Source of the DNA: Terriglobus saanensis SP1PR4
GTDB lineage: Bacteria; Acidobacteriota; Terriglobia; Terriglobales; Acidobacteriaceae
Assembly: GCF_000179915.2 (NCBI RefSeq)
Contig: NC_014963.1
Span: forward strand, 1,302,001-1,366,000
DNA: 64,000 bases
Direction: 5' to 3'
A program made the position numbers and the translations under genes. The notes beneath the pieces are model-generated. The model saw nothing but the letters and a program-made list of their open reading frames with translations, made no database searches and was not told the DNA's origin. How positions within the stretch are numbered: position 1 is the first letter of the stretch; each line of letters starts with the position of its first letter. Positions 1,909-23,804 of this stretch are shown piece by piece.

Positions 1909-4900
1909 ATGCACTTCTCCCTCAAGATTCGTGACAATAGAAGCAGTTTGAAATTTGCAGTCTTTGTACTTACCCTTGCCTTGATCACCGGAAGTGCCTG
2001 GGCGCAGAGCACGCTCACCGGCCTTGTATCCGATCCGTCGGGCGCAGCAATTGCCGGGGCCCAGATTCAGGCCCGCAACCTCAATACGAACATCAACCGC
2101 ACAGCGGTGACCAACGAAAGAGGTTACTACACCATCTCGGCCCTGACTTCCGGGACGTACAGCGTTCAGGTAAATGCATCCGGCTTCACAGAACTGACCC
2201 GCACGGGAGTCGCGATGGGTGAAGACCAGGACTTGCGACTCGATCTCGCCGTCGCCCTGGGTACGGAAAAAGCTACGGTTCAGGTCAACACCCAAGCCCC
2301 GGCACTTCAGCAGGAGACGACAGCTGTCAGTTCTTCCCTTGAGCAGGAGCCCATTCAAAATCTTCCCCTTAATGGGCGCAACATTACCGGGCTCGTCGCT
2401 CTGTCGCCAGCCGTTCGAGCAATCGGAGCGTTTGGGAGTTATACCCAGTCGGCAAACAGTGACGGTCGCATCTCCATGGCAGGCGCACCGCCCTCCTTCA
2501 ACACTTTCCTCGTAGATGGGAACGCCAATGAATTGCCCACAGGCGGTGGGCCAATGGTTCCGCTGTCTCCGGATGCCACTCAAGAGATCATTTTGGTCAC
2601 ACATAACGCGTCCGCTGAATATGGCCGGAGCGGCGGCGGCGTGGTCAATTACATCTCGCGAAGCGGTACAAACCAGCTTCATGGATCGGCTTGGGAATTT
2701 GCGGAAAATGACGCCTTCGATGCAAATGACTACTTCAGCAAGAACGCCAAGAAGCCGATTCCCCCATTGCAGTTCAACCAATATGGTGCGGCCCTGGGCG
2801 GTCCTATCCTTCCGGACAAGCTGTTCTTTTTCGTCAACTACGAGGGTTCGAAGCAGACCATTGGCTCCAACGCTTTTTATACGGTTCCCACGGATCTCCA
2901 ACGGGAAGGAGATTTCTCTCAAACCTTCAATGCATCGGGCAATCTTATCCCTATCTACAATCCCATCACCGGCTCGGCGCAGGCACCTCGCACACAATTT
3001 CAAGGCAACGTCATTCCGAAGGGGCTCTTGAATCCCATTGCGTTCAAGATACTGTCTTACTATCCAGAGCCAAATGCGACAGGAAATCCCTTCACTGGAG
3101 TCAACAACTACTTCGCGAGTGGGGTGCAAACAACGACGCGCAACGCGTTCGGGATACGGCTCGATGACTATCTCACGCCGACTCAGAGGCTCGCAGGGCG
3201 TTATAGCTGGGACAAGGGAACCCTGATTTCGCCACTGTACTTCGGCGGACAGAGTGTTGCCGACCCCGGCTTTGGCCCCACCATTTATCCCCGAACCAGC
3301 GCGGCTCTGCTCTATACCAACGTCATCACGCCTACACTCTTGCTGGAAGCCCATGCTGGATTCAATCGGTTTGGTCTCGTGAGAAACCCGATCAGCCTCG
3401 GTTTCGACCCCGGAACGCTGGGATTTCCATCCTCCTTAGCGCCTCAGATGCAACTTCTTGAGTTCCCGTTATTCGCGATGTCCACGACTTCGTCCATTGG
3501 CAGCAACCAAAGTGATCCTTCTACGCAGGAGAACAACGCGTATACCTTTGGGGGGGATGCCACTTGGGTCAAGGGGACACACACCTTCAAAACAGGCGCA
3601 GAGATGCGGGATTACCAATGGAATTCGATTCAAGGCACGGGTGTTCTCCAATTCAATTTCGATGCCAATTTCACCAAGGGGCCGAGTCCTACAGCCGCCG
3701 CAACGAATGGATATGACCTGGCTTCTCTTCTTCTCGGTTACCCATCGGCGGGAACACTGACCCGGCATCAGAACTATGCGTATTCGACGTACTATTGGTC
3801 CCTGTATGCGCAGGACAACTGGAAGCTCACGCGAAAATTGGTGATCGATTATGGACTCCGATATGACCATGAGGCTGGCACGACAGATCGACACAACGGC
3901 ATCAGTAATTTCAATCCAGGTCTCATCTACAGCGCGGGGGCACAACATCTGTCCGGCGGACTTCAGTTTGTTGGGACCGATGGCATCGCCCGCGGCAATC
4001 GAGATGCGACCTGGGACAACTTTGCGCCTCGCATAGGTATTGCATATAGCCTCAATCCAAAGACGGTCTTCAGAAGCGCCTTCGGTCTCTTCTTTTTACC
4101 CACTACGGGTGGGTACGTTCGATTGGGCTCTACTGGATTCACCAGCGTGACGTCGTACGTCCCTTCACTCGATGGAAATCAGCCAAGTGGAACACTGGGC
4201 AATCCCTTCCCGCAGGGGATCGTGCCCATCACAGGTTCTTCACTAGGGCCTTTGACAGGACTCGGCACGGCGATCACAGCGAACGTTCGCGACCTCAAGA
4301 CCGGAAGTACGCAGCAATGGAGTGCAAACCTCCAAAGGCAAGTTGGTGTTTGGGCACTGGAACTCGGTTATATCGGCACTCATGGACTCCATCTGCCAGC
4401 AGACTATGCCTTCCATCATTTGCCGCAGCAAGACCTCACGCAAGGCAGCGCCCTGCAACAGCTGGTGCCAAACCCGTTTGCCGGAATCATCACAAACGGT
4501 TCGCTTTCTGCTGCTCAGGTACAACGGGGACAATTAGAGATGAATTATCCGCAGTTCACGGGTGTGACCTCGCTGACAAACTGGGCAGGCTCTAACTTCC
4601 ATGCGGGAATATTCGAAGTACGCAGACAGTTCGTCAATCAGTTCTATCTTCTGGCCTCGTACACCTACTCGAAGCTGCTGGATAACAACCTTGGCAATGG
4701 CGAGAACATCTACGCCGACACTGGCAGCAACACCGTTCAAAACTGGGACAATCTGAAAGCGGAAAAGGCGGTTTCTACCTCAAATCTTCCGCACCACCTT
4801 GTTATCTCAGGCAATTACGTTCTGCCGTTTGGTAAATCGGGAAACCGTCTCTACAAAAAACTAGCGGGAGGATGGCAACTTAACGGCATCTTGACTGCAG

Positions 4901-5304
4901 AGAGCGGCAATGTGATTAGTGTGACCGCAAATGCGCCCGCATATGGGGGAGCTCGGCCGAACATGATCGGGAATCCAACTTTGCCTCATCCCACGGTAAC
5001 CAGTTGGCTCAATAAGGCTGCGTTTGCCAATATTCCTGCGTTCACTTACGGCAACGCACCGAGGAATCTACCCGCAACACGCACCCAAGCCTATGTGAAC
5101 CTGGATGCGTCGGCAGGCAAAGACGTAGTACTGCATGACGAGATTGCTCTCACTCTCAAAGTGGAAGCTTTCAATCTATTCAACAGCACTACGTTCGGAA
5201 CACCGGATAGCAACATCAACGACACCAACTTCGGTCAGGTCACGACGCTCCGCACAGGAACTGCTCCCAGGGTTCTTCAGTTCGGCGCCAGGTTGCACTT
5301 CTAA
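1909..5304 (+). CDS. Oar-like TonB-dependent outer-membrane receptor (module 1)
   Basis: Outer-membrane transporter of about 1131 residues. It has an N-terminal signal peptide ending near SAWA|QS. A carboxypeptidase-regulatory-like domain follows (about residues 30-110; TGLVSDPSGAAIAGAQI, GYYTISALTSGTYSVQV). Then comes a TonB plug (LPLNGRNITGLVALSPAV, FLVDGNANE, then SAEYGRSGGGVVNYISRSG). The rest is a long beta-barrel ending in the aromatic residue typical of outer-membrane proteins (ARLHF). The start at 1909 has GAGG six bases upstream; the longer frame from 1780 would bury the signal peptide. Such receptors in Acidobacteriota are thought to import oligosaccharides or other large ligands. 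A Tat-exported glycosidase-like gene follows 140 bp downstream, which points to a carbohydrate; the ligand itself is unknown. Confidence 0.9.
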   Translation: MHFSLKIRDNRSSLKFAVFVLTLALITGSAWAQSTLTGLVSDPSGAAIAGAQIQARNLNTNINRTAVTNERGYYTISALTSGTYSVQVNASGFTELTRTGVAMGEDQDLRLDLAVALGTEKATVQVNTQAPALQQETTAVSSSLEQEPIQNLPLNGRNITGLVALSPAVRAIGAFGSYTQSANSDGRISMAGAPPSFNTFLVDGNANELPTGGGPMVPLSPDATQEIILVTHNASAEYGRSGGGVVNYISRSGTNQLHGSAWEFAENDAFDANDYFSKNAKKPIPPLQFNQYGAALGGPILPDKLFFFVNYEGSKQTIGSNAFYTVPTDLQREGDFSQTFNASGNLIPIYNPITGSAQAPRTQFQGNVIPKGLLNPIAFKILSYYPEPNATGNPFTGVNNYFASGVQTTTRNAFGIRLDDYLTPTQRLAGRYSWDKGTLISPLYFGGQSVADPGFGPTIYPRTSAALLYTNVITPTLLLEAHAGFNRFGLVRNPISLGFDPGTLGFPSSLAPQMQLLEFPLFAMSTTSSIGSNQSDPSTQENNAYTFGGDATWVKGTHTFKTGAEMRDYQWNSIQGTGVLQFNFDANFTKGPSPTAAATNGYDLASLLLGYPSAGTLTRHQNYAYSTYYWSLYAQDNWKLTRKLVIDYGLRYDHEAGTTDRHNGISNFNPGLIYSAGAQHLSGGLQFVGTDGIARGNRDATWDNFAPRIGIAYSLNPKTVFRSAFGLFFLPTTGGYVRLGSTGFTSVTSYVPSLDGNQPSGTLGNPFPQGIVPITGSSLGPLTGLGTAITANVRDLKTGSTQQWSANLQRQVGVWALELGYIGTHGLHLPADYAFHHLPQQDLTQGSALQQLVPNPFAGIITNGSLSAAQVQRGQLEMNYPQFTGVTSLTNWAGSNFHAGIFEVRRQFVNQFYLLASYTYSKLLDNNLGNGENIYADTGSNTVQNWDNLKAEKAVSTSNLPHHLVISGNYVLPFGKSGNRLYKKLAGGWQLNGILTAESGNVISVTANAPAYGGARPNMIGNPTLPHPTVTSWLNKAAFANIPAFTYGNAPRNLPATRTQAYVNLDASAGKDVVLHDEIALTLKVEAFNLFNSTTFGTPDSNINDTNFGQVTTLRTGTAPRVLQFGARLHF

Positions 5305-5345
5305 AGTTCCTGCCCGTACTGGCGGTCCCCTATTACCAATTTGTT

Positions 5346-5381: not shown

Positions 5382-5444
5382 CATCCGTTCGATTGCTCCC
5401 GCATCATCCATTCTTTGACTTCACGCATATCGATCGGAAGACTA

Positions 5445-7811
5445 TTGACGACCTGTATTTCACGACGGCTTTTTCTCCAACTGTTAGCAGCAACTCCGCT
5501 CGGAAAAATTCTGGCCAGCGATCGAGTTTCAGCCGAGAAATCGTTAGGACGAATCCTATCGCTGCACCGGAGCGTCAACTTTGGTCTAACTTCCACGGGC
5601 AAAGGCCGCACGGTGGGAAGCGACTATGAGCAATCAACCGAGAAGGAGTCAGAACTATCTTTCGATATATCCAATAATCAGCTTGCAGCTTCCCTTACTC
5701 GAAATGGAAAGATAAAGCGTGCCTGTATCTGTGAAGGGGTTGTGCCGCTGGCAGTTGAAAAACTCAAGGGTGGCGTCTATTCCACAAAACGGCTTCTATA
5801 CGGTGGCCCTTGGTTGCTCAAGGCCAACGTAGACACAGTCAATGCGTCTCCTGGGAAGATGGAAGTCTCGCTCATTGAGAATTGCTTTCCAATGTTCACT
5901 CAAGAATTTGGGAAAATTCGAATCCATCAATTTGTTTTTGCGCCAGTCGATTTACTGAGGACAGCCCAATCTCCCCGAGCCCTCATCGCCATTTTTCTCA
6001 TAGAGAATAGAGGTGGCACGCCGCACGCTATCGACTTTCAACTCGAAGACGCGATCGATGAACCGAAAGACGATCTTTCACTTGCAGCCGCTGGACAAGC
6101 TAGCGATTTGGCTGTTGATGCGAAGAGTAGAGCGTCGTTTGCCTACGCGCGCTTTGATCAGAATGGCTACATCGGAATGGCCTTATCGTCCATCACTAGC
6201 CGTATCCATGTTGAAGCAAATTCTATTGCTGCCTCAGGACATGCGTTGATGTTAGGAGAAAGCCCTGCAGAAGTGCTTCGAACTCAAACAAGGATCTCCT
6301 CTAAAACCCTCTCATCCTGGCTTCAAGACACACTCGAATCTCGGCGTGAGTCTTATGGTCACCTTGTCATCTCTGGCGAAACCTTTTTTTCTGAATCAGT
6401 GATTCGCTTTTCGGAGCTGTCCCGTCAGTCAGCGTTGCGTTCATCCGACGGTAAAGTGAGTGGTGGATTTCTTGGCAGCGACGTCGATCTTAATCAGGTG
6501 AACTGGGTTCGGGATTCTTACTATTCCATGTTGGCCATGAGTCTCGTAGAACCGTCCCTCTGTCGGGACTCGATTCCTTACTTGTTGGAATGGGGACGAC
6601 CTTCCGTAACAACAGGTGCGGGCCAAGCGCGCTTCCCCGGAGTCAAATCCATTAGTCAATCGCTCAGCAATTCAGTCTCCGGTCTAGCCCTCGCGGCGAT
6701 GTACTATCGCTCAACCGGGGATCGCGAATTTTTCACTGCAAGACCGGAAATACTGAGAAGAGCGAAGACCATTCTCGATGAGGTTCTCGCAAGCCGCCGT
6801 ACGTCAGCGATGCTCTTTCCATCGTTGTATTTCTCGGACGGAGAGGCACGTGGCGACTTCCATACAGGGTCAAATGTTGCAGCTTGGGTGGCCTTCTCAG
6901 GAATGGCCCGGATTGCAGATGACGTGTATCGCAACGATGTCCTGGCTAAAGAGTGGTCCACGGTCGCAGGCGATATCCGTCAGGCAATCGACGCACATTG
7001 TGTTAAAAACGGGCCTGCAGGGCAGCATTTCGTAGAAGGCGTGAACGTCGATGGGACTTTTGTAATGGGACATGACGGCGAAGAAAGCGAAACAACTTTG
7101 ATGCCGTTTTACGGATTTTGCGGTGCCGATGATCTGCGACTGATAAACCATGCGGCATCAGCGATGACCGCTCAAAACCCTCTCTACTCTGAAGACCTCG
7201 ATGCAATCTGGTGGTACAACTCCGATTGGAACTCCGCCACATTTCCTGGTTGGACTACTGCGCTTGCCGGAGCATGGGACGAAGTCCAGATTCTGGACAG
7301 ATTGCAACGAATTCGATCCCTCACTGATTTGGACGGATCGCTGTGGTGGTGGCCTTACGCCTACGGAAGCAAGGATCCGAACAAACCGACGCGTGGCGGC
7401 GTAGCTCGAAAGTGCGGATGGGGCACGGCGGTGTATCTCTGTTTGTTCATCCATGACATTTTAGGCATCTCGGTTGATGCACCAGCTCAGTCCATACGAT
7501 TTGCGCCGTTCGCACCATGGAAAGAGTTTGTTTGGAAGCAAGCAACAATCGGTTGGAGCACGTTTGACCTCTCTTACCGGCGAGATGGAAGTGAGATCTT
7601 GGCCACGCTCAAAAATCTAAATACGCACAACTACTCTGCCACAATCGTTATCACACCGGAAAAAGATAAGCACTTGAGGCATGCCAAAGTTGTCGGAGGG
7701 AGGGAAGTCAGACAGCGCTTCATTGAGCATCGAGGAAGGCAGGCTATCGAAATCATGGTCGAGATCCCGTCATACCAACAGGTGCGCGTGACGGGTGAGG
7801 TTGGGCCATAG
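5445..7811 (+). CDS. Tat-exported six-hairpin glycosidase-like protein
   Basis: Large secreted protein, 788 residues. It starts with a twin-arginine leader (S-R-R-L-F-L at residues 6-11, then an alanine/leucine stretch). The TTG at 5445 was chosen because GGAAG precedes it by four bases and it gives a normal Tat n-region; a TTG at 5415 is also in frame. The first third is rich in beta strands. From about residue 335 the protein looks like an (alpha/alpha)6 barrel, with VNWVRDSYYSM resembling the W-x-R-D segment of GH15/GH63-like glucosidases, later FHTGSNVAAW and a tryptophan-rich SLWWWPYAYG. A small beta-sandwich closes it. I could not place it in a specific family. Position after an Oar-like receptor supports a role in processing an oligosaccharide in the periplasm. 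Confidence 0.7.
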   Translation: MTTCISRRLFLQLLAATPLGKILASDRVSAEKSLGRILSLHRSVNFGLTSTGKGRTVGSDYEQSTEKESELSFDISNNQLAASLTRNGKIKRACICEGVVPLAVEKLKGGVYSTKRLLYGGPWLLKANVDTVNASPGKMEVSLIENCFPMFTQEFGKIRIHQFVFAPVDLLRTAQSPRALIAIFLIENRGGTPHAIDFQLEDAIDEPKDDLSLAAAGQASDLAVDAKSRASFAYARFDQNGYIGMALSSITSRIHVEANSIAASGHALMLGESPAEVLRTQTRISSKTLSSWLQDTLESRRESYGHLVISGETFFSESVIRFSELSRQSALRSSDGKVSGGFLGSDVDLNQVNWVRDSYYSMLAMSLVEPSLCRDSIPYLLEWGRPSVTTGAGQARFPGVKSISQSLSNSVSGLALAAMYYRSTGDREFFTARPEILRRAKTILDEVLASRRTSAMLFPSLYFSDGEARGDFHTGSNVAAWVAFSGMARIADDVYRNDVLAKEWSTVAGDIRQAIDAHCVKNGPAGQHFVEGVNVDGTFVMGHDGEESETTLMPFYGFCGADDLRLINHAASAMTAQNPLYSEDLDAIWWYNSDWNSATFPGWTTALAGAWDEVQILDRLQRIRSLTDLDGSLWWWPYAYGSKDPNKPTRGGVARKCGWGTAVYLCLFIHDILGISVDAPAQSIRFAPFAPWKEFVWKQATIGWSTFDLSYRRDGSEILATLKNLNTHNYSATIVITPEKDKHLRHAKVVGGREVRQRFIEHRGRQAIEIMVEIPSYQQVRVTGEVGP

Positions 7812-7901: not shown

Positions 7902-10184
7902 TCAGTGCATGGCCCAAAGCATCATCAGATCGCTTCTTGAGTCTTCCTTGGTGGCGAACAGAATGGCATTGTCCGATGGCGAGTACGACAAGCTGGGATA
8001 GCCAATCAGGGGATCGCGGGGCAAGGTGAGCGCGGGGCGATTCGAGTGTGTTTGGAGATCATACCGGATCACCTTTGACCGATCGCCACGGATGTTCACG
8101 TAATAGATTCCTCCATCGGAGATGGTCCAGAGCCTTCCGAATCTACAGTGTTCAAGACCGGGTATCTGAACGGGCGATCCGCCACTAAGTGGCATTTGCC
8201 AGAGTCCCTCGGTTCCATTGGTGTAAAAGATGGACTTGCCGTCCGGAGCGATATGCGCATCAGTAAGTGCAAACTGCGAGACACTAGTCGCATCGCTGCC
8301 TGACGTTGTCATCTTCCAAAGCTGCATGGAGCCAGCTCGATTGGAATCGAAATAGATCCATTTCCCATCCGATGACCAGGCTGGCTGCTTTTCCTCTTGT
8401 CCTTTCGGACTCAGATTGCGAAGGCCTTGTCCATCAGGTGAAATGACAAAGATCGCGGAACGTCCGTTCGGCCGAGCGTCAAACGCTATGGACAGTCCAT
8501 CAGGAGACCACCGGGGGCTGCCAACCGAACCGGTATCGAAGTTGGTGAGCTGACTGGCCTCTTTACCATCTGCGCTTGAAACCCAAAGTTCCCATTTTCC
8601 GCTGCGATCCGAAACGAAGGCAATCCGCGATCCGTCGGGAGAAAATTGCGCGCTATGGCTGCTTCGGATTGAGGGCGCGACACTGACAGGTGGAACGGAG
8701 GTGCCGGCCTGCGAAACTCCGATCTTGAGGATCTCGGAGCGAAGTGTGAAATCGGCGTAGACAAGAAATTGGCCATCACGAGAGATGGCCGGTTGAATTG
8801 CCGATTCTCCTGTTGCGGATATCGGGGAGGGGTTACCCCCATCCAGACCGATTGTCCATAAACCATAAGCGCCGCCACGGTTCGAAGAGAATACGATCTC
8901 ACGGTTACCAGCACTCCAGGCCAATCCCTGAACATCCGTGTGATCCGATGTCAGCCTTCGTTCTCTGCCGTCGAGCAGTGACCTTATAAAAACGTCCGAT
9001 GAGTCATAGCTCGAAAAGCGCGCGTATGCTAACCACTTTCCGTCCGACGAAAGAGTCGGGTTGAGATCACGTTCGTCGGAAGAAGGATTCGTCAAAGAGT
9101 GTAGCTCGTGAGTATTCAGATCGAATCTATATAAGCCCATGCCCCGGCCTGACGGCGCGACGTCTGACACAATGAGGCCCTTCCCATCCGACGACCAACT
9201 TGGCCCGGTATCATTCCTGATCCCCAACAGATCTTCGCTCCATGGGCGACCGTTTCGCAGAGCGAATAACGCATTTTCTGATCCTCCGGGGAACGACACT
9301 ACTCTTACCTGCGAGCCACTCGACGTGACTCGAAGGAACGCGATTAAATTTCCATCGGGAGACCATACAGGATGGATATCCGTACCCGGGCCAGCCGTGA
9401 CTCGGAGAGGCTTACCGCCAGGTCGCACAACGTAGACGCTATAGGTGCTGCCCCCGTTATTCCAGATGAAAGCCACAGACTTCCCGTCAGGCGACACGTT
9501 GGGTTGATAAGACTCCCCGAGAAAGGTAGTAAGTGGGATGATACGCGCGACACTTCTCCAATGGTCCGGTGTCCGGGTAACAAACAGCAAAGCCCCGAGA
9601 CCGAACGAGAGACCGAGTGCCAGAAACGAGGCGTAAAGCAGAATTCGGCGGAGCCTGCTTGCGGGAGGTACTGCCAAAGGAGAAGGGGCGAGGGTGCCCC
9701 CTAGTATAACGAGATCAGAAGTGCTGGATGTTTCGGCAATAGTTGAAGGCTGCACTGCCACAGCCTCAAATATAGGGAGGTATGCCCCCTTGGGAATCCA
9801 TATCCGGATAGGGTCAAACTGGCCTTCCTCTTCAAAGTACCCCTCCAACTTCAGGCGCAGCCGTCTCGCTTCGCTGCGAACAACGGTGTCGAGTTTCGGA
9901 TCGTAGCTGGGCGCTTTGTCGTAAACGGAGACACCGATAGAGGTTTCTTTGATCTCTCCGGCTCGACCATCGAGAGCGGTTTCCGTGACGTAGCGGAGGA
10001 AGCGGGAGATCCGCACGGAGTTCTTGAAACGATTGCTAGTTAGTATGCGGTCGAGTTGAGAACGGATAGATTCGGCGTCAAGGCTGGGGAGCTGTTGCTC
10101 GCCCGACGAAATACCTTCGCTACAAAACGCATGCTTGGGCGGTGTTCTCGCCGCAATTGCCGCCTTGAATGCCCGCGCTTCCAT
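7902..10184 (-). CDS. membrane-tethered regulator with TolB-like (PD40) propeller sensor
   Basis: About 760 residues in three parts. Residues about 30-140 match the helical N-terminal domain of the two regulators at 10585 and 16619 (RFLRYVTETALDGRAGEIKE, then DPKLDTVVRSEARRLRLKLE, ending in IPKGAYLPIF). A single transmembrane helix lies around residues 180-205 (LLYASFLALGLSFGLGALLF). The rest is a run of WD40-like TolB repeats with the recurrent pattern SPDGKSVAF / WSPDGNLIAF / SSDGKWLAYA, forming a periplasmic propeller. The layout resembles CadC/ToxR proteins: cytoplasmic DNA-binding part, one helix, outer sensor. DNA binding of the N-terminal domain is inferred. Start taken at 10184, preceded by AGGA at suitable distance; 10199 is the longer option. 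It converges on the module 1 enzyme. Confidence 0.75.
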   Translation of the reverse strand: MEARAFKAAIAARTPPKHAFCSEGISSGEQQLPSLDAESIRSQLDRILTSNRFKNSVRISRFLRYVTETALDGRAGEIKETSIGVSVYDKAPSYDPKLDTVVRSEARRLRLKLEGYFEEEGQFDPIRIWIPKGAYLPIFEAVAVQPSTIAETSSTSDLVILGGTLAPSPLAVPPASRLRRILLYASFLALGLSFGLGALLFVTRTPDHWRSVARIIPLTTFLGESYQPNVSPDGKSVAFIWNNGGSTYSVYVVRPGGKPLRVTAGPGTDIHPVWSPDGNLIAFLRVTSSGSQVRVVSFPGGSENALFALRNGRPWSEDLLGIRNDTGPSWSSDGKGLIVSDVAPSGRGMGLYRFDLNTHELHSLTNPSSDERDLNPTLSSDGKWLAYARFSSYDSSDVFIRSLLDGRERRLTSDHTDVQGLAWSAGNREIVFSSNRGGAYGLWTIGLDGGNPSPISATGESAIQPAISRDGQFLVYADFTLRSEILKIGVSQAGTSVPPVSVAPSIRSSHSAQFSPDGSRIAFVSDRSGKWELWVSSADGKEASQLTNFDTGSVGSPRWSPDGLSIAFDARPNGRSAIFVISPDGQGLRNLSPKGQEEKQPAWSSDGKWIYFDSNRAGSMQLWKMTTSGSDATSVSQFALTDAHIAPDGKSIFYTNGTEGLWQMPLSGGSPVQIPGLEHCRFGRLWTISDGGIYYVNIRGDRSKVIRYDLQTHSNRPALTLPRDPLIGYPSLSYSPSDNAILFATKEDSRSDLMMLWAMH

Positions 10185-10584
10185 CTGTAGATTCCTCATG
10201 TTATAGCGACAATGTTACTTCCTGATGAATAGCAGCCAAGTCGACGGTGCATCTGCACGTTATTTCTCAGGTATAGCGCGATCGGAAGGCTTAGTTTCGC
10301 AACCGTTGCCCCGGCTGGAGGTGGTTGGGTTTAGCTGAACCGATCGGCGAGTACACGGCAGCGGCTCGCTGTCCGCCAACCGATCCAACAAACAGGGAAG
10401 TTCCTCCGGCTAAGGTCTACAGCGCATAGTGCCCATTCGCTTGATCGTGGCGCTAGACAAAGGCGTCGAGTGATAACCAGAAACCCGACTTTCCATGCAG
10501 CCACTGCAACAAAAATACGGAAAATGCGGAAGTGAATATGTCGATACATCCTAGGGCTAAATTCTGTAGATCCTATTTCATTTC
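10185..10584. other. intergenic region, no gene recognised
   Basis: About 400 bp between two minus-strand regulator genes. It must hold the promoter of the PD40 regulator, but I see no convincing -35/-10 pair. A short open frame of 90 codons (10331-10603, minus) has no family features or ribosome-binding site and runs into the neighbouring gene, so it is not called. A half-copy of the module 2/3 box (GTGAATATGTCG, near 10541) is present but incomplete. Confidence 0.5.
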
Positions 10585-11967: not shown

Positions 11968-11986
11968 TGTGAATATACCGTGAACC
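11968..11986. promoter_or_regulatory. direct-repeat regulator box, module 2 copy
   Basis: TGTGAATATACCGTGAACC contains two GTGAA repeats starting 11 bp apart, one helical turn. A copy identical at 16 of 19 positions sits in the matching place of module 3 (18018-18036). The box lies about 28 bp upstream of the regulator start and about 195 bp upstream of the receptor start. A perfect inverted repeat, GTGAA-CCA-TTCAC (11980-11992), overlaps the second half. Best read as the binding site of the paralogous regulators. Confidence 0.6.
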
Positions 11987-12180
11987 ATTCACACTGTGTT
12001 CACTGTATCCCGATACATCGATGCCTGCTAAGTCCATTATTCCAAATAGGTTAGTCGGTGTATCGAACATGTCTCGGTGAAACTGCTTCTCCGATCAAGA
12101 TGGCGCTGCTATTTCTTCTCCAACGAACCCCATTGATAGGGAATTTTCATGTTCGGCGAATTACTTATGGAGCGAATGCG

Positions 12181-15797: not shown

Positions 15798-16598
15798 TTG
15801 TTTCAGCGTGACCGTCGCCAGTTTCTCCTTCAGTCGTCCACTCTGGCAGCCGCCTCGTTCCTGCCTTCCCATCTTTTTTCGCAGACAGCTTCATCAAGCC
15901 CGGAGCGGAAGATCCCAAACCAGGACACGATTCTGAAGTTCAACCCCGACGGTACACCACGCCCTTTCGCGGGCAACACGGTCATCTGCCATTTACCGGC
16001 GCAGTGCGCGATGCGCGACGCTATGGTGGAACTGCACGGTGCGCTAACGCAGGCTTCTTATCGCCACAAGCTTGGGCTTACTTCTACGGACAGCTACCAC
16101 ATGACCATCTTCCCAGGAGCGAACGATCAGGGCAGATCTGCTTACGGATGGCCGTCCTATGTACCAGCAGATGCTCCGATTGAAGTCTGCGATCGCATGG
16201 TGGGTGAGCGGATAGCGAAGACACATTTCTCCTGCCCATTACCCCTGCGTATGCGCGTCGATCAAGAGCAGACCATCCATTACTCGACAGCCTGCACCTT
16301 AAGAATGATTGCAGTCGACAGCGACGAAGAAAAGAAGTTAAGGTCTCTCCGAGACAAGCTTGCAGAGGTCTTTGGCTTTCAGCTCAAGAATCATGCGACC
16401 TATCAGTTCCATATCACTATGTCGTATCAGATGGCCCCATTTACAACTGAGGAGAACGGCGCTTATCGGAATCTGCTCGAAAAACATGTCCAACGCATCA
16501 TCGATGCAGAGCCTGTCCTGGAGCTTGGAGTTCCTGAATATTGTGTTTTTCCGGACATGTTTCGCTTTGAGCCGCAGAAGTTGCTGGCTTGCTCCTGA
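15798..16598 (+). CDS. Tat-exported DUF1868 protein, 2H phosphoesterase fold
   Basis: A 266-residue protein starting at a TTG preceded by AAAGGA at good distance. The twin-arginine leader is visible at residues 5-11 (D-R-R-Q-F-L-L) followed by a short hydrophobic stretch ending at LFSQTA. The mature part carries two H-x-T motifs, H101-M-T103 in SYHMTIFPG and H205-I-T207 in FHITMSYQ. These are the paired catalytic motifs of the 2H (cyclic phosphodiesterase-like) superfamily to which DUF1868 belongs. Known members of the superfamily cleave or make 2',3'-cyclic phosphates or related esters; the substrate of the exported form is not known. It follows the module 2 receptor by 92 bp on the same strand and its 3' end converges on the regulator at 16619. 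Confidence 0.8.
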   Translation: MFQRDRRQFLLQSSTLAAASFLPSHLFSQTASSSPERKIPNQDTILKFNPDGTPRPFAGNTVICHLPAQCAMRDAMVELHGALTQASYRHKLGLTSTDSYHMTIFPGANDQGRSAYGWPSYVPADAPIEVCDRMVGERIAKTHFSCPLPLRMRVDQEQTIHYSTACTLRMIAVDSDEEKKLRSLRDKLAEVFGFQLKNHATYQFHITMSYQMAPFTTEENGAYRNLLEKHVQRIIDAEPVLELGVPEYCVFPDMFRFEPQKLLACS

Positions 16599-16618
16599 AG
16601 GCCTGTCTGAGACGGCCT

Positions 16619-17986
16619 TCAATTCATCGTACGCCAGGCAACGATGTGGCTTTGCGTGGCACTAGCGCCCATATTCTGCGTTCCCAGAAGCACCTCAAAG
16701 TGCGGCAGCGTGCCGTCGGGATGTCGTATGCGGTTCAGGAACGGCAGGAGTTGTGCATCGTCCAAAACGAAATCCATTCCCGCCTCAGTGCCGGACATCC
16801 CCGTGCCCTCAAGCAGCAGAGCATTGCCGTCTCCAGCAAGGCTTGGCATATAGGCGACCACCCCGAAGACCGTTCGTTGGGGGTCGTCCCTTCTGGACTC
16901 CCATCGTGCAGGTTCGCCTTTTTGTGGGTTCCGGTTAAGGATCGAAAAGACGCCCTTATAGTCATCCTTAAAGACGAAGTTCATGTTGTGTTCATAGAGT
17001 TCATCCCATGGATCGGCTTCGGACGAACCGAGCAGGATGACGTCACCTGCCTTGAAATCATTCGGTCGCAGGTCGCGGGCATACCGTACGGACACTTCAC
17101 TGCCCAGGGTCTGCGCCCGATCCTTAAGACTTAGGATCGTCTTGAGATCCACGATGGAGGTATACCGGCGATTTGCAAGATCGAGGACTGAATCCTTGAG
17201 AGATGCTGCTGGGCCGATCTGGGGCAGGACGGCTGGCTCCGATCGATATCCTGCATCAAGATAACCCTTCAAGTCGAGGTCTCGACCTGACATGCCATGA
17301 AAGAGCACCAAACCAGAATCTGGAGCAACCACCATGGTTGGTTGATTCTTAGTGAAGAGGTGGCTCCAGAGTGGGTGATCCGCGATAGCGGGCCGTTGAA
17401 GGGTACTACGGTCATGAAACCAGAGTGCCATCAGCATCAGGGTCAATACAGCACTTAGTCCCCATGGCAACCATCTTCCAGTGACAGATTGTTTTGGATG
17501 TACTTCTACACTCGGCGTAGGTGTCAGGGGGGAGAGGTAGGGAGAAGGCAGTGTTGCCTCGACATCTGCCGGAGTGGGGACGGATGTATTTTGTGTCTCG
17601 AATACCGGCACATAGCCACCGCGTGGGATGGTGATTCGTACTAGTTCGTCCGCACCTTCCTGCTGGAAGTACAGTTCCAGACGCTGCCGTAACCGGCTTG
17701 CCTGGCTGCGGACGATCCCGTCCACTGCTGAGTCGTAATCCTGGGGTCGGCCAAATATCTCTCGACCGATCTTCTGTTCGTTGATCTCTGCTTCGCGACC
17801 TTTGAATGTCATGTCGCAGACGTAGGTCAGGAATGTGCCTAAACGCTCGCTCCGGGCGAAGGTCGGAGAGTGCACGATGCGGCGGACCAACTCCCGCCGC
17901 GCACCGTCCGAACCGACCGCTGGCAACTGGCCTAGCCTTCGGGGACGAGTGTCCGACGCTTCACGCTCTGGTTTTGCCGTCACCAT
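16619..17986 (-). CDS. membrane-tethered one-component regulator, module 3
   Basis: A 455-residue paralogue of the protein at 10585, similar along its whole length. The N-terminal helical domain spans about residues 30-135 (HSPTFARSERLGTFLTYVC, EQKIGREIFGRPQDYD, VRSQASRLRQRLELYFQQEG, IPRGGYVPVF). A transmembrane helix follows after a threonine/proline-rich linker (WLPWGLSAVLTLMLMALWF). The outer domain shares RYTSIVDLKTIL, YARDLRPNDFKAGDVILLG, ALLLEGTGMSGTEAGMDFV and VLLGTQNM with its paralogue. It is divergent from the module 3 receptor across 210 bp with a direct-repeat box 32 bp before its start. A CadC/ToxR-like job, sensing outside and binding DNA inside, is inferred from the layout; I do not recognise the sensor domain. 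Confidence 0.75.
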   Translation of the reverse strand: MVTAKPEREASDTRPRRLGQLPAVGSDGARRELVRRIVHSPTFARSERLGTFLTYVCDMTFKGREAEINEQKIGREIFGRPQDYDSAVDGIVRSQASRLRQRLELYFQQEGADELVRITIPRGGYVPVFETQNTSVPTPADVEATLPSPYLSPLTPTPSVEVHPKQSVTGRWLPWGLSAVLTLMLMALWFHDRSTLQRPAIADHPLWSHLFTKNQPTMVVAPDSGLVLFHGMSGRDLDLKGYLDAGYRSEPAVLPQIGPAASLKDSVLDLANRRYTSIVDLKTILSLKDRAQTLGSEVSVRYARDLRPNDFKAGDVILLGSSEADPWDELYEHNMNFVFKDDYKGVFSILNRNPQKGEPARWESRRDDPQRTVFGVVAYMPSLAGDGNALLLEGTGMSGTEAGMDFVLDDAQLLPFLNRIRHPDGTLPHFEVLLGTQNMGASATQSHIVAWRTMN

Positions 17987-18017
17987 AGTTTGTTCTCGCT
18001 CGAGTTAATCACGCCAG

Positions 18018-18036
18018 TGTGAAGATATCGTGAATC
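18018..18036. promoter_or_regulatory. direct-repeat regulator box, module 3 copy
   Basis: TGTGAAGATATCGTGAATC has two GTGAA repeats with an 11-bp period, matching the module 2 box at 16 of 19 positions and lying at nearly the same distance from the start of the paralogous regulator (about 32 bp). The surrounding sequences are otherwise not obviously alike, so the match is unlikely to be simple duplication background. Confidence 0.6.
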
Positions 18037-18196: not shown

Positions 18197-21100
18197 ATGA
18201 CCGTCCCAAAGCCGACCAGACCTCCGAAACCTACAAACGCCCATTTGAACCTCAGCAGGATCGTAACGTTTGTCTTCTACGTCTTGCTTACGACCACGGC
18301 CACGTTTGCACAGTTCACGGCTGGGGTTCAGGGCAACATCCAGGATGCTGGGGGAGCCGGCATACCGAACGCGCAGATGGTTCTTCTGAACACTGCGACG
18401 AAAGTGCAGCAAACCGGCGCCAGCGATACCTCAGGGCTCTATCGCTTTACGAGCCTTGGTCCTGGAGAATATGAGATCTCCACCTCTGCAAAGGGCTTTA
18501 CGCCCGCAAAGGTGCGGTTTACTTTGACGGCCGGTCAAATCCGAGATGTCTCTCTGAAACTCGGTGTCGGCAGCGACACGACCAGCGTCACCGTCACGGG
18601 CGAATCGCCACTTCTGGATACGGCTGACAGCCGAGAAATACTGACCCTCGATCAGACGGCGCTTGAAAATCTGCCACTGGCCACCAGAAATCCCATGTCC
18701 CTGTTGGGTCTTACGCCGGGTGTGACCGGGATACAGCCAGCGACGACAACGTTCAATCCGGAGACCACAAATCACTACAGTGCGAGCGGACGAGGGGGCA
18801 ATGCAAATACGGTCATCGTTGATGGGTTGGATGTCGACAGCGACATCGGTGCTGGTGTGACCAATCTGACGCCCAATGTTGATTCGCTCTCAGAGGTAAC
18901 GGTTCAGACCAACACCTATACCGTGGATTACGGTAAGTCCGGCTCCATTCAAACCCTCATGTCCTCCCGGCCCGGAACGGCCCAGTACCATGGCTTTGCG
19001 AGTGGCTACTACACCTATCAAGGGCTGGAGGCGCGTGGGGAGTATGGCGTACCAAAGCCGACTCGTCTGTCTCCGTTTCACACCACCGATCTATCCTTCG
19101 GAGTGGGTGGTCCCATTATCCCGAAGCAGCGTTTCTTCTTCTTTGCGACACTGGAACCATACTTTTCCTCCACTCCAAATCCCGCTCTCACTGCGGTCGG
19201 AGCCCTTGCCCCAAATAGCGGCAGCCTTACCTATGAAGATCCGGCGTTCGCAGCCTTCGCCCAGCAGGTGAAACCTGCTTCGCTGGAGACGTCTCTGCTC
19301 ACGAAGTATCCCACGCAGAATGTTGTGTTCAAGTCGTCTACGAACGCGCAGGCGGTTTTTGGGGCTCAGAATATCGCAGCAAACACTGGCTGTAACACTC
19401 CGAGCACAGATAACATCCCTTGCTCTACGCCTGTCTTTGATTCAGGTATTTTCAATGCCTCGGCACCGAATACCTCGTACCAATACAGCGTTCGAGTCGA
19501 CAAGGTCTTCGACAAGGATCGCGTCAATGGCTTCTTCGTTCGCAATACGATTGCGAGCTCGGCGCCAAGTCCGAGACCGCAGTTCACAACGAGCAGCAAT
19601 CTCTATACCTTCTCCCTGCAAGGGAACGAAACGCATACGTTTTCCGCTCACTTGCTGAATGAAGCTTTTGCTGGGTACAACCGGATTGAGGGCTACACCC
19701 CCAATAAGGGACTGTTCACTGTTCCAGTGGTCAACGTCACGAACCTGGGTGTCGGTTTTGGTGATGCCAATCCGTATGAAGACTATATTCAGCATGGCTT
19801 TCATTGGCGGGATGTGGTGACCTATGTCCGAGGCAATCACGACTTTCGAATCGGTTACGAAGGCTGGCATGGGGATGACCTGGCGTACTTCGCAGGCCGA
19901 TACAGCCAGCCAATCTTTACCTACACAAGCATCATCAACCTGATCAACGACAATCCATTTACTGAAACCAACATCGCTTTCAATCCAGTTACAGGACAGC
20001 CCTTTGCCGATAATTACGGCTTTGCCAAAACCTCGGGCGGTGCTTTCGCTGAAGACGAATGGAAGGTCACACACAGACTCACGGTCAACTACGGCATTCG
20101 CTACGATAACTTCGGCAATGCCTACCCTGCGCTCGGGCAGACGGTGCTGGCGAACTTTCATCCGGCGGCAGGCTCATCGTTTGCCGAGAGTATCGCCAAC
20201 GGCGCCTTTACGCAGCAGAGCCACACGTTCGCGCACGATTTGAATTGGATCTTCAGTCCCCGAGCCGGATTTGCGTATGATCTCTTCGGTAAAGGAGATT
20301 GGGTCATGCGTGGAGGCTTCGGTGTCTATCGAGACGAGTTCACTCTTGGAAACCAGGAGAACGGATTGATTGCGAATCCACCCGGTCCTGTGCGTCCGAC
20401 GTTCAAGAACGATGGTTCGACGCCAGCACCGGTCTTCGGATTGGCGACACAGAATACCTATCCCTTTGGCTTTCCGTATCCAGCCTTTGTTGGCGCTCCA
20501 CTGGATGCAAAAGGCGGTCGCGTGGGAGGAGGATTCACTGTGATCGGGATCGACCCCAATCTTAGCTTGCCCCACACCTTGAACTACACTTTGACGCTTG
20601 AGCACTCACTGACGAGAAGCATCGTTGCCAGTGTCGGGTATCAGGGATCTCACTCTGGAAACCTGATCACGAATGGAGGTAACCTCGCCGCTCATACCTA
20701 CGGCAATGACGTGAACGCCTTTGCGGGCGACCTTCTCCAGCATCCCAGCTTCGCAACTTCCGGAGCATATAACGGGACGGGCATTCAGAACCGTCTCAAC
20801 ACCAGCTTCGCCGCGATTACGTATGCGACGAATGGCCCGACCGCGAACTACAACGCCATCATCGCAGCGGTCAAAGGGCAGTTCTCGAGACATGGTTTTG
20901 TCACGGCTTCTTATACGCACTCCAAAGCAATGGACGACTGGCTGAGCTACCCAACCGCAGCACCGCCCTACAACCAATACTATTCAACCTCGCTGTTCAA
21001 CGTGCCCAATGCTTTCTCGCTGGGATGGAACTATCAACTGCCAGGCGGCGCATTGCACAACCCCTTGCTCCGGCATATTGCGGGAGGTTGGACCTTGGCT

Positions 21101-21658
21101 GGGATTACGAGTCTGCAAGCCGGCACGCCCTTCAGTGTCCAGAACACAAACCCCTTGGCGGTAAGCGTTACCGGGACGGATGGGGTACGCATTACTTCTG
21201 CGAATTATGCAACCGAGTTGGCAGCCGGTCATCTCCAGTATGTTCTGACCAGCGGAGACTATAACGCCGATGGAAATAACACCGACTACCCGAACGTCAC
21301 GGCCTATACGCAGAAGCACAATAGGAGCGATTTCCTTGTAGGTCATGGAGTCTTCCCTGTGTGTGCTGGCGGCGCGCTCCCTTGTGGCAACTTCACGCTT
21401 CCGGCCTTTGGGTCGGAAGGGAATCAAACCCCGAACCGGTTCAGCAATCCCGGTTATGCAGACACTGACCTGACGTTGAAAAAGACAACGCGGATCACAG
21501 AGCGCGTCAATATGGAGTTGCGCCTTGATACCTTCAACCTCTTAAATCGAGTGAACCTGATGGCCGTCGATCCGAAGCTGCAGGACACGACGTTTGGTCA
21601 ATCGACCAGCACGTACGCACAAAGGAATATGCTGCTCGGAGCGAGAATCAACTTCTAA
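18197..21658 (+). CDS. Oar-like TonB-dependent outer-membrane receptor (module 3)
   Basis: About 1153 residues. The start at 18197 is preceded by AAGGA six bases away. A basic, proline-rich n-region leads into the hydrophobic core VTFVFYVLLTTTATFA|QF. The regulatory-like beta domain is GVQGNIQDAGGAGIPNAQMV and YRFTSLGPGEYEIS. The plug includes LPLATRNPMSLLGLTPGV, NTVIVDGLDVD and VDYGKSGSIQTLMSSRPG. The barrel ends in LLGARINF. It is followed after 121 bp by a GH127 gene, which suggests that the imported ligand is an arabinofuranose-containing oligosaccharide, for example from plant cell wall; this is inference from the neighbour. It is transcribed away from its likely regulator at 16619. Confidence 0.9.
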   Translation: MTVPKPTRPPKPTNAHLNLSRIVTFVFYVLLTTTATFAQFTAGVQGNIQDAGGAGIPNAQMVLLNTATKVQQTGASDTSGLYRFTSLGPGEYEISTSAKGFTPAKVRFTLTAGQIRDVSLKLGVGSDTTSVTVTGESPLLDTADSREILTLDQTALENLPLATRNPMSLLGLTPGVTGIQPATTTFNPETTNHYSASGRGGNANTVIVDGLDVDSDIGAGVTNLTPNVDSLSEVTVQTNTYTVDYGKSGSIQTLMSSRPGTAQYHGFASGYYTYQGLEARGEYGVPKPTRLSPFHTTDLSFGVGGPIIPKQRFFFFATLEPYFSSTPNPALTAVGALAPNSGSLTYEDPAFAAFAQQVKPASLETSLLTKYPTQNVVFKSSTNAQAVFGAQNIAANTGCNTPSTDNIPCSTPVFDSGIFNASAPNTSYQYSVRVDKVFDKDRVNGFFVRNTIASSAPSPRPQFTTSSNLYTFSLQGNETHTFSAHLLNEAFAGYNRIEGYTPNKGLFTVPVVNVTNLGVGFGDANPYEDYIQHGFHWRDVVTYVRGNHDFRIGYEGWHGDDLAYFAGRYSQPIFTYTSIINLINDNPFTETNIAFNPVTGQPFADNYGFAKTSGGAFAEDEWKVTHRLTVNYGIRYDNFGNAYPALGQTVLANFHPAAGSSFAESIANGAFTQQSHTFAHDLNWIFSPRAGFAYDLFGKGDWVMRGGFGVYRDEFTLGNQENGLIANPPGPVRPTFKNDGSTPAPVFGLATQNTYPFGFPYPAFVGAPLDAKGGRVGGGFTVIGIDPNLSLPHTLNYTLTLEHSLTRSIVASVGYQGSHSGNLITNGGNLAAHTYGNDVNAFAGDLLQHPSFATSGAYNGTGIQNRLNTSFAAITYATNGPTANYNAIIAAVKGQFSRHGFVTASYTHSKAMDDWLSYPTAAPPYNQYYSTSLFNVPNAFSLGWNYQLPGGALHNPLLRHIAGGWTLAGITSLQAGTPFSVQNTNPLAVSVTGTDGVRITSANYATELAAGHLQYVLTSGDYNADGNNTDYPNVTAYTQKHNRSDFLVGHGVFPVCAGGALPCGNFTLPAFGSEGNQTPNRFSNPGYADTDLTLKKTTRITERVNMELRLDTFNLLNRVNLMAVDPKLQDTTFGQSTSTYAQRNMLLGARINF

Positions 21659-21678
21659 CGACCGCGGTCTGCTTGGGA

Positions 21679-21710
21679 GGGTGGGTGATTTCTTTTGGGA
21701 ACACCCATCC
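21679..21710 (+). other. intercistronic hairpin without T-run
   Basis: GGGTGGGTG (21679-21687) pairs with CACCCATCC (21702-21710) over 9 bp with one G-T pair and a 14-base loop, between the module 3 receptor and the GH127 gene. It is weaker than the two other intercistronic hairpins but sits in the same place and also lacks a T-run. Confidence 0.4.
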
Positions 21711-21779
21711 AGACTTCTGCTGACACCATCGCCACACTCTCGTTCGAAGCAAATCGTATACAAGGAATTCATTATCTCG

Positions 21780-23804
21780 ATGCTGACACGTAGGAAGTTT
21801 GTAGAAGTTGGGGCAGCTGCTGTTGCCGCGGTGGCGCTGAAAGAAAAATCTGCTTTCGCTGATGAGCGACGCGAATCGTCGCTGAAGCTCGCTCCCACAG
21901 CGTTTCGAGCGCTGCCACTCGGGCAGATCCGTCCGGGGGGCTGGCTTCGTCGTCAGCTGCGCATTCAGGCGGATGGTCTAAGCGGTCATCTGGATGAGTT
22001 CTGGCCCGATGTAGGTCCGCATAGTGGATGGCTGGGCGGATCGGGCGAAAGCTGGGAACGCGGTCCTTATTTCGTTGACGGGTTACTCCCACTCGCGTGG
22101 CAACTCAATGATGAGCGTCTCAAGGCCAAAGCGATGCGTTTCATCGACTGGACTCTGAACCATCAGGCACCGAACGGCATGATTGGCCCGGCGAGCAATG
22201 ACGACTGGTGGCCGCGCATGGTGATGCTGAAGGTGTTGGCTCAATATCATGATGCCACTGCGGATCCTCGCGTCCTTCCCGTACTCACGCGATACTTTCA
22301 CTACCAGCTTGCCGTCTTGCCCACACGGCCCCTGCGCGATTGGGGAAAGTATCGATGGCAGGATGAAGTCCTCGTTGTAGAGTGGCTCTATGAATGCACT
22401 GGCGACGCGTCGTTATTGCGTCTTGCCAATCTGCTCGAGAAGCAGGGGTATGACTGGATTGTAGGCTTCGCGGACTTCAAGCATACCGGCGTCACCTCGC
22501 GCGCTTATCTTGATGCTTCGGCCATCGGCGGGAACAGGGCTGAAGGCATGGAAACGCATGGCGTCAATAATGGCCAAGCGATCAAAACCGCGGCCGTCCG
22601 TTACCGCCTTTCTGGGGACGCATCTGAACATGCCAACTTCAAACGACAGATCGACACGCTCGACCGCTTCCACGGCATGCCGAACGGTATGTTCTCCTGC
22701 GACGAGCATTTGGCAGGTCTTGATCCAAGCCACGGGACGGAGCTCTGTACTGTGGTGGAGACCCTCTATTCCCTCGAGGTCGCACTCGAAACCTTCGGGG
22801 ATGCTTCCATCGCAGACCGTATCGAGAAGATTGCTTTCAACGCTCTTCCCGGTACCTTCGACGACGCGATGTGGGCTCACCAGTACGACCAGCAGGCCAA
22901 TCAGGTTCTGGTGGGGCTCAACTCCAAGCCCTGGACAACCAACGGCCCCGAATCGAATCTGTACGGACTCGAACCCAACTTCGGTTGTTGCACGGCAAAC
23001 TTTCACCAGGGCTGGCCTAAATTCACGTCCAGCCTGTGGATGCGCTCGCCGGACGGCGGTTTAGTGGCTTCGTTGTATGCCCCATGCGAGGTCGAGACCA
23101 CGGTCAGCGATCACAAGATCTCTCTTCGCGTGGAGACCGAGTATCCGTTCAAGCAGGATGTCCGCATTGTTTTGTCTCCCGAGACTGCGTTGAGTTTTCC
23201 TTTGCACTTGCGGATTCCTGCATGGGCGAGCGCGGCCACTCTTCGGATCAATGGCCAGCCGGTACCGATCGATGCAAAGCCGGAAACCTTTGCGCTGATC
23301 GAAAGACGTTGGGTTCCAGGGGATGTTGTTGACTTGCATCTGCCCATGGTCCCTTCGATTTCACGTTGGTATAACCATTCGCTCGCACTGATGCGTGGGC
23401 CGTTGGTCTTCTCCCGGGATCCTGGAGAGAGTTGGGTCAAACTCCGCGACAGGGGACTGACTGCAGATTGGCAGGTGTACCCGAAGAAGTTTTGGAACTA
23501 CGCTTTGCTCGTCGATGAGCGCTCGGCGGGGGAGGTTGAGGTCGTGGAGGGAGCTGTCGGTGTAATACCTTTTGCGGCGATATCGGCACCAGTGAAGCTG
23601 CGAGTCAAAGCTAGCCGCATCAATGCCTGGCGCTCAGAGGATGGAGTCGCGGCACCGGTGCCGGAAGGGCCGCAGACCAGCACACTTCCGGAGGAGATGC
23701 TGGAGCTCATCCCCTATGGCGCGGCCAAGCTGCGTATCACTGCCTTTCCGCAACTGAGAAGAGACAAGCAGGCAGATGAACACTTCTCACATGTTAAATG
23801 CTGA
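21780..23804 (+). CDS. Tat-exported GH127-family glycosidase (beta-L-arabinofuranosidase-like)
   Basis: Protein of 674 residues with a twin-arginine leader (T-R-R-K-F-V at residues 3-8, then an alanine-rich core to SAFA). The body is the (alpha/alpha)6 barrel formerly called DUF1680. The zinc-binding, nucleophile-bearing cysteines of GH127 are present with family-like spacing: E321-x-C323 in GTELCTVVE and C403-C404 in NFGCCTANF. In the characterised bifidobacterial enzyme the equivalents bind zinc and one Cys is the nucleophile, so this copy looks catalytically intact. Acidic residues D308/E309 are candidates for the acid/base. Related families with the same fold act on other sugars, so the substrate is not fixed. 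Start chosen at the ATG that opens the Tat leader; AAGGA is 13 bases upstream, a long spacing. Confidence 0.85.
   Translation: MLTRRKFVEVGAAAVAAVALKEKSAFADERRESSLKLAPTAFRALPLGQIRPGGWLRRQLRIQADGLSGHLDEFWPDVGPHSGWLGGSGESWERGPYFVDGLLPLAWQLNDERLKAKAMRFIDWTLNHQAPNGMIGPASNDDWWPRMVMLKVLAQYHDATADPRVLPVLTRYFHYQLAVLPTRPLRDWGKYRWQDEVLVVEWLYECTGDASLLRLANLLEKQGYDWIVGFADFKHTGVTSRAYLDASAIGGNRAEGMETHGVNNGQAIKTAAVRYRLSGDASEHANFKRQIDTLDRFHGMPNGMFSCDEHLAGLDPSHGTELCTVVETLYSLEVALETFGDASIADRIEKIAFNALPGTFDDAMWAHQYDQQANQVLVGLNSKPWTTNGPESNLYGLEPNFGCCTANFHQGWPKFTSSLWMRSPDGGLVASLYAPCEVETTVSDHKISLRVETEYPFKQDVRIVLSPETALSFPLHLRIPAWASAATLRINGQPVPIDAKPETFALIERRWVPGDVVDLHLPMVPSISRWYNHSLALMRGPLVFSRDPGESWVKLRDRGLTADWQVYPKKFWNYALLVDERSAGEVEVVEGAVGVIPFAAISAPVKLRVKASRINAWRSEDGVAAPVPEGPQTSTLPEEMLELIPYGAAKLRITAFPQLRRDKQADEHFSHVKC

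Follow-up and report, generated by a model that had tools for sequence, protein, structure and literature searches.

What controls the Oar-type receptors of Acidobacteriota, which are abundant soil bacteria, is the question raised by one locus of Terriglobus saanensis SP1PR4. It lies in a stretch of 64,000 nucleotides (contig NC_014963.1, positions 1,302,001 to 1,366,000, forward strand), referred to here as the window, and holds three TonB-dependent outer-membrane receptors, three exported enzymes and three regulators. It is proposed, with a probability of roughly 0.6, that such loci are nutrient-acquisition cassettes run by one-component membrane regulators. What is new is a direct repeat in the intergenic regions between regulator and receptor; it stands beside the gene layout, the enrichment of these regulators next to receptors, the conservation of modules 2 and 3 and a predicted winged-helix-like domain, all obtained by computation. 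In the open-access full-text literature no description was found of the regulator family, of its pairing with receptors or of the repeat, nor any paper on the control of Oar-type receptors in Acidobacteriota. The genome forms one contig of 5,095,226 bases, within which the Oar-type N-terminal domain (CarboxypepD_reg) is matched 112 times, in 95 cases within frames of at least 800 amino acids (aa); receptor counts rest on this list, the search with the barrel family OMP_b-brl_4 having scored only 65 of 113 candidates. The accessible portion of the genome paper describes a single replicon with 4,279 protein-coding genes, and words beginning with TonB, receptor or regulator were not found in that portion (PMC3570800).

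A first-pass annotation, made from the letters of the window, had described three diverged Oar-like receptors with one exported enzyme behind each on the same strand, and three minus-strand regulators of common N-terminal design, with regulators 2 and 3 divergent from their receptors and the PD40 regulator converging on enzyme 1. The frames and domain matches of the window agree with this arrangement, and an N-terminal domain (N-domain) of about 105 residues is present in all three regulators. The gene calls for the window missed P0002 and P0006. The features are as follows.

1735..1750, minus strand: operator-like direct repeat TTTACCTGCTATTCAC, intergenic, about 160 bp upstream of receptor 1
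1909..5304, plus strand: receptor 1, an Oar-like TonB-dependent outer-membrane protein (PF25183, 735.8 bits; PF13620, 71.1 bits), start by the gene caller
5415..7811, plus strand: enzyme 1, exported, glycoside-hydrolase-like (GH125, 21.6 bits, under the cut-off of 23.4)
7902..10199, minus strand: PD40 regulator, with the shared N-terminal domain, a hydrophobic segment seen by eye and PD40 repeats (PD40, 154.7 bits)
10585..11940 (longer reading to 11988), minus strand: regulator 2, with N-domain, hydrophobic segment and a C-terminal domain (C-domain) resembling that of regulator 3
11969..11984, minus strand: operator-like repeat TTCACGGTATATTCAC, regulator 2/receptor 2 region
11988..12003, plus strand: operator-like repeat TTCACACTGTGTTCAC, facing the TTCACGGTATATTCAC repeat
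12181..15705, plus strand: receptor 2, Oar-like (PF25183, 705.3 bits), ATG start (MKRNAKK) by eye; gene caller, 12250
15798..16598, plus strand: enzyme 2, exported, DUF1868/2H-phosphodiesterase-like (PF08975, 99.3 bits, cut-off 21)
16619..17986, minus strand: regulator 3, in a predicted model a winged-helix-like N-domain (about 27-131), a probable membrane helix (173-194) and an alpha/beta C-domain (200-455)
18019..18034, minus strand: operator-like repeat TTCACGATATCTTCAC, about 163 bp upstream of receptor 3
18197..21658, plus strand: receptor 3, Oar-like (PF25183, 348 bits), start by the gene caller
21780..23804, plus strand: enzyme 3, exported, GH127-type (PF20736, 81.8 bits; PF07944, 52.2 bits; both above cut-off), start by the gene caller

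The three receptors, only about 25-28% identical to one another, each carry the parts expected of an Oar-like protein, namely CarboxypepD_reg (71, 64 and 57 bits for receptors 1 to 3), a plug (22.3, 31.0 and 24.4 bits against a cut-off of 23.9, which receptor 1 marginally misses) and the OMP_b-brl_4 barrel (736, 705 and 348 bits). The N-termini of the enzymes (SRRLFLQLLA, DRRQFLLQSS and TRRKFVEVGA for enzymes 1 to 3) all look like Tat-type (twin-arginine) signals when read by eye, with no signal program. Enzyme 1 matches trehalase families of NCBIfam far under their cut-offs, and its true start is probably downstream of the listed TTG.

Whether the regulators accompany receptors more often than expected was the check that the first-pass annotation had set for its own proposal, and the association survived it. 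The genome contains 13 copies of the N-domain by alignment search, and again 13 with a wider alignment. In six cases a receptor domain lies divergently no more than 700 bp away, a number that stays the same at 1,000 and 2,000 bp, while 13 randomly placed positions, tried 20,000 times with the 1,000-bp limit, average 0.12 and never exceed 3. Among control families the figure is 2/20 for Trans_reg_C and 1/8 for LacI (2/8 at 2,000 bp). Two further copies sit in receptor clusters, one where regulator, NAGLU, GH2 and receptor are co-directional (L022) and one where the regulator is divergent from a GH31 gene that is followed by the receptor (L029).

A scan of named genomes for related loci returned 79. 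The gene immediately divergent from the regulator is an Oar-like receptor in 46 of them and some other gene in 20; in the rest the regulator follows a same-strand gene (7), was uncalled (4) or lies at an edge (2). For several of these 20 a receptor is still close by, either beyond the next gene or behind the regulator. The regulator counted for L055 is another, intact copy and not the scanned match, and that of L031, missed by the gene caller, is actually divergent from a receptor and stands outside the 46. Because the scan started from receptor-linked regulators, a fairer count was taken from four genomes of the family, where 6/9, 6/10, 8/14 and 0/7 regulators (7 of 8 fetched in the last) are immediately divergent from a receptor, 20/40 altogether with two uncalled cases scored as misses. 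Behind 30 of the 46 divergent receptors there is a called same-strand gene within 400 bp, and 12 of these 30 genes have an RRxF N-terminus, as compared with 26 of 666 other genes. The N-domain itself occurs in 8 of 60 genomes drawn from the phylum and 27 of 40 from the family, the genome of T. saanensis being in both sets. A tblastn search with regulator 3 also matched 267 plasmid records, mostly of Rhizobiaceae; among the 30 plasmid matches listed, mostly the N-terminal half is covered, and annotation calls the features adenylate cyclase, hypothetical or helix-turn-helix protein.

The regions between divergent regulator and receptor contain a direct repeat, TTHAY-N6-TTHAY, with an 11-bp spacing. 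It was tested in 46 non-redundant regions out of 48 (L056 and L057 were dropped as near-duplicates), and control regions containing N or outside the gap limits were dropped. At 11 bp the 46 regions hold 40 pairs of TT[ACT]A[CT]; 200 dinucleotide shuffles yielded 1.03 on average and 5 at most, and every other spacing between 5 and 40 stays at 10 pairs or fewer. At least one repeat is present in 34 of the 46 regions and in 4 of 317 control intergenic regions taken from these loci, 3 of those 4 being among the 68 divergent controls. The repeat lies on the coding strand of the regulator in 32 of the 34 regions, and on the other strand in 5. As the motif had been picked after viewing the sequences, a held-out test was made on genomes not read before. 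It gave 8/20 regions, or 6/18 without two from an already-used genome, against 1/125 controls (Fisher P 1.1e-5).

In the genome of T. saanensis, 6 of the 22 sites of the narrow form TTYACN6TTYAC have a receptor domain no more than 600 bp downstream (random mean 0.24, maximum 4). Four of the six are in the window, about 160 to 200 bp upstream of the receptor starts at 1909, 12181 and 18197; a fifth window site, at 54008, is within a gene. Since an operator-like repeat falls within the longer reading of regulator 2, this gene probably starts at 11940 rather than 11988. The pho box likewise consists of tandem direct half-sites about 11 bp apart, and the repeat thus shares its geometry with PhoB/OmpR sites while differing in the half-site, TTHAY, and in a protein that has no receiver domain. 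Two observations may be added on these sites. Another receptor domain has a TTYACN6TTYAC site about 320 bp upstream (G000:C1:3469761-3469776), with no N-domain regulator listed nearby. A palindrome, TGTAWC..GWTACA followed by GTGAAT, is visible by eye near the repeat in several of L033-L043, relatives of module 2, and in the window at 11988-12020.

What kind of protein might read such a repeat is suggested by a structural model. The N-domains of the window regulators match no Pfam or NCBIfam family over cut-off, and the commonest family match among relatives is Trans_reg_C, which is weak (5 of 59 members, best E 0.006). Regulators 2 and 3 share 51% identity, and their C-terminal part differs from that of the PD40 regulators, of which one is the window gene at 7902-10199 and another was recognised by eye in L024. 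The structure of regulator 3 was predicted with 59 sequences, at a mean predicted local distance difference test score (pLDDT) of 86.3; L055, L068 and L075 were left out of the alignment, as their matched frames contain stops. In the model the N-domain is made up of helices at 27-38, 41-44, 47-61 and 70-78, a long recognition-like helix at 91-109 and a hairpin at 116-131. Confidence is highest in the blocks covering 31-130 (pLDDT 93-98), low in the linker and mostly good in the C-domain (200-455). The helix predicted at 173-194, between the two folded domains, is hydrophobic by eye, no topology program having been applied. In hhalign comparisons the N-domain aligns with the genome's own Trans_reg_C domains with helices and wing in register (probability 74.5, P 2.7e-5; 61.1 and 8e-5 with a second alignment), and the C-domain, taken as a control, gives a probability of 0.3. 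The N-domain is therefore predicted to be distantly related to the OmpR/PhoB winged helix, with an altered N-terminal part.

CadC and ToxR combine a cytoplasmic winged helix, one membrane helix and an extracytoplasmic sensor in one protein, and the same layout is predicted here, with one membrane helix at 173-194 of the regulator 3 model that separates the putative DNA-binding domain from the putative sensor. The differences are that the N-domain falls under the Trans_reg_C cut-off, that its model begins with helices in place of the N-terminal sheet of the OmpR winged helix, and that the sensor is another alpha/beta domain or a set of PD40 repeats. In its model the regulator looks CadC/ToxR-built, and its membership of Trans_reg_C is not established. 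The C-domain modelled separately (mean pLDDT 89.3) retrieves BcsB chains of four PDB entries in all 14 of the best Foldseek rows (best E 2.2e-4, probability 0.85-1.00), with weak template modelling scores (TMq 0.30-0.39) and a root-mean-square deviation of 6.4-10.5 Å; a profile comparison with BcsB was negative (probability 3). Kinship with BcsB is kept as a lead and not taken as proven, the structural matches agreeing with one another but scoring weakly and the profile comparison being negative; a carbohydrate-related sensor in the modelled C-domain is likewise a lead only.

Of the three modules proposed as sensing, uptake and processing units, two recur as units in related loci. Module 3 recurs with its regulator divergent, relatives of receptor 3 and enzyme 3 being 84 and 82% identical in L031, and 82 and 56% in L032. 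Relatives of receptor 2 and enzyme 2 occur together in L034, L036, L043 and L045. For module 1, the nine best matches of receptor 1 in the related loci, which were collected by regulator, reach at most 34% identity, and enzyme 1 has no relative there at E 1e-20 over 60% of its length. Neither a divergent receptor nor an upstream repeat was found for the PD40 regulator, for which reason module 1 was dropped as a firm unit. As receptor 1 bears a repeat and the PD40 regulator does not, it is more likely that the regulator of module 2 or 3 governs receptor 1.

The likeness to a polysaccharide utilisation locus, also drawn by the first-pass annotation, may stand in outline but proves too narrow in substrate. 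Enzyme 2 is DUF1868/2H-phosphodiesterase-like, and relatives have PI-PLC, metallophosphoesterase, sulfatase and adenosine deaminase, families which contradict a polysaccharide-only reading. Those checked behind or beside receptors include the carbohydrate families GH127, GH92, GH106, GH2, NAGLU, GH31, alpha-galactosidase and alpha-L-fucosidase, and also DUF1868, PI-PLC, calcineurin-like phosphoesterase, sulfatase, adenosine deaminase with purine nucleoside permease, DUF218 and FG-GAP/ASPIC proteins; the range of the cassettes is therefore broader than polysaccharides. Genes in L037, L076 and L083 match no family at E 0.001, and matches in L067 and L093 are under cut-off. Some arrangements are worth recording separately. 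An adenosine deaminase and a purine nucleoside permease lie behind the receptor in L084 (3620-6042), perhaps a nucleoside-scavenging cassette. A NAGLU-type alpha-N-acetylglucosaminidase adjoins an HGSNAT-like membrane acetyltransferase and a receptor in L049 (11569-15016) and L051 (11867-15147), with Pfam matches for both genes in the former and for NAGLU in the latter, and the layout looks similar by eye in L048, L054, L060, L064 and L091; NAGLU and HGSNAT are a pair known from lysosomal heparan breakdown. In L053 (2309-9526) a PI-PLC-C1 protein (Pfam), a receptor and a GH92-looking protein stand in a row beside the regulator, as they do by eye in L063, L065 and L073, and such a cassette might serve fungal mannoprotein or glycosylphosphatidylinositol-type substrates.

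In Bacteroidota, each polysaccharide utilisation locus unites a TonB-dependent receptor, a co-located exported hydrolase and its own regulator. The same layout is found here as in those SusC/SusD loci, but with a one-component membrane regulator of winged-helix-like type, and with enzymes that in relatives include phosphoesterases, sulfatases and a deaminase. Carbohydrate-active enzymes (CAZymes) are co-located over cut-off in module 3 (GH127), below it in module 1, while module 2 has DUF1868. The claim that these loci are built without SusD is borne out, as SusD_RagB has no match in the whole genome and a Bacteroides control does give one. FecR has a single genome match, about 1.6 Mb away; hybrid kinases and extracytoplasmic function (ECF) sigma factors were not searched for. 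With no SusD, and FecR only elsewhere, the locus is not of the Bacteroidota type by membership; the cassette may work like one in outline. The placing of receptors and exported enzymes beside such regulators, often with the repeat in between, suggests a control system for nutrient scavenging unlike the well-known one of gut bacteria. LacI or CadC-like regulators that are divergent from TonB receptors occupy the same position as the regulators described here and belong to a different DNA-binding family. Such a second family is seen in this genome, where two CadC-like Trans_reg_C frames (715 and 750 aa) are divergent from Oar-like receptors (G000:C1:1989292 and 3411060). In other forest-soil bacteria, CAZyme genes have been seen to neighbour TonB receptors and a variety of regulators, according to the accessible part of one report (PMC4850484).

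The mechanism proposed would run as follows. Each regulator would hold an OmpR/PhoB-like winged helix in the cytoplasm, joined by one membrane helix to a periplasmic sensor. The product of the enzyme, or the substrate itself, would enter the periplasm and be bound by this sensor, upon which the winged helices would bind as a tandem pair to two TTHAY half-sites that lie between the divergent genes, spaced by 11 bp, or one DNA turn. Binding would switch on the receptor and the exported hydrolase downstream, and probably also tune the regulator's own gene, while the receptor would take in the product with energy from TonB. Regulators 2 and 3 would each control their own receptor, and one of them probably receptor 1 as well, through the same type of site. 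Binding of the repeat by the regulator, the ligand, the sign of regulation, import and the membrane topology are the steps that we infer. For an acidobacterium, it has been suggested that TonB-dependent receptors import oligosaccharides, according to the accessible part of the report (PMC10564751).

A wider generalisation is offered more tentatively, at somewhat less than even odds. It would hold that an unnamed family of membrane-anchored winged-helix proteins with interchangeable periplasmic sensors binds 11-bp tandem TTHAY half-sites and switches on interchangeable cassettes of receptor and exported hydrolase for glycans, phosphodiesters, sulfate esters and nucleosides. The family could also capture receptors that lack a regulator of their own, as with receptor 1, and would form an acidobacterial alternative to SusCD with hybrid two-component control. 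A cassette rule of regulator, repeat, receptor and enzyme would allow substrates to be guessed from the enzyme and regulons to be read from the repeat, and it gives proteins without a family name an operator and a DNA-binding domain that can be tested.

A number of results weigh against the proposal of regulated acquisition cassettes. No receptor is in view at 10 loci of Alphaproteobacteria and Spirochaetales, nor at the acidobacterial loci L068, L096, L097 and L102, and genome G080 has none of its 7 regulators beside a receptor. The four genomes behind the 20/40 count were selected for their abundance of regulators, and G085 among them is partly shared with the 79 loci (L081, L083). In T. saanensis itself the remaining regulators are two by a probable efflux operon, one by a purine permease, one by a GH3 gene, and the PD40 regulator of the window. 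The winged-helix assignment rests on the model and borderline profile scores; no sequence relatives of the N-domain were found in the PDB, and Foldseek with the whole regulator 3 model gave nothing at E ≤0.001 and, among the 50 matches listed, none named as a winged-helix protein. The motif having been chosen post hoc, the held-out set is its only fair test, and there spacings of 10 and 12 are also raised (4/20 and 5/20). The narrow pattern TTYACN6TTYAC is not over-represented in the genome (22 against 19 for the reversed control). A looser form of the repeat lies upstream of only 3 of the 13 regulators of this genome, and the repeat therefore marks a subfamily. Lastly, the median distance of the repeats is 268 bp to the receptor start and 72 bp to the regulator start as called, which autoregulation alone would also fit.

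That last point leads to the possibility that the regulator controls only itself or a distant target, its place beside the receptor being a relic of ancestral gene pairing with no function today. Both the nearness of the repeats to the regulator start and their presence at only 3 of 13 regulators would be expected from this, yet receptor 1 bears a repeat with no divergent regulator, and the receptors are highly diverged and found in several arrangements (divergent, or with regulator, enzymes and receptor co-directional), which suggests repeated association; this explanation is considered unlikely. An equally low standing is given to the view that Oar-like barrels export the neighbouring enzymes instead of importing their products, making the cassette a regulated secretion unit. 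Oar of Myxococcus xanthus has the same TonB-dependent barrel, plug and N-terminal extension, is tied to protease secretion and development, and is needed for secretion of the protease PopC, as far as the accessible part of that report goes (PMC6434023). The same-strand genes behind 30 of 46 divergent receptors, 12 of the 30 with RRxF, would likewise fit export. Against this, PopC is a single case, the receptors here accompany an enzyme and a regulator, the enzyme types vary widely, and some cassettes include proteins whose names do not mark them as exported enzymes, such as the purine nucleoside permease and the HGSNAT-like protein. More improbable still is that the shared N-domain does not bind DNA and that the 11-bp repeats are sites of another regulator or parts of promoters. 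The lack of a Pfam or NCBIfam family over cut-off and of a PDB relative by sequence would allow it, but the modelled recognition-like helix and wing, the in-register Trans_reg_C profile match and the concentration of repeats in regions adjoining these regulators all favour a DNA-binding role. Cassettes under one-component control are thus preferred to each of these alternatives.

Two observations on the surroundings remain. In L023 (1502-10185) two tandem N-domain regulators adjoin an apparent TolC/MFS/HlyD efflux operon, as judged by eye. In the window, a tRNA-Gln(CTG) gene at 23862-23935 directly borders the right side of the cluster and is a possible insertion point.

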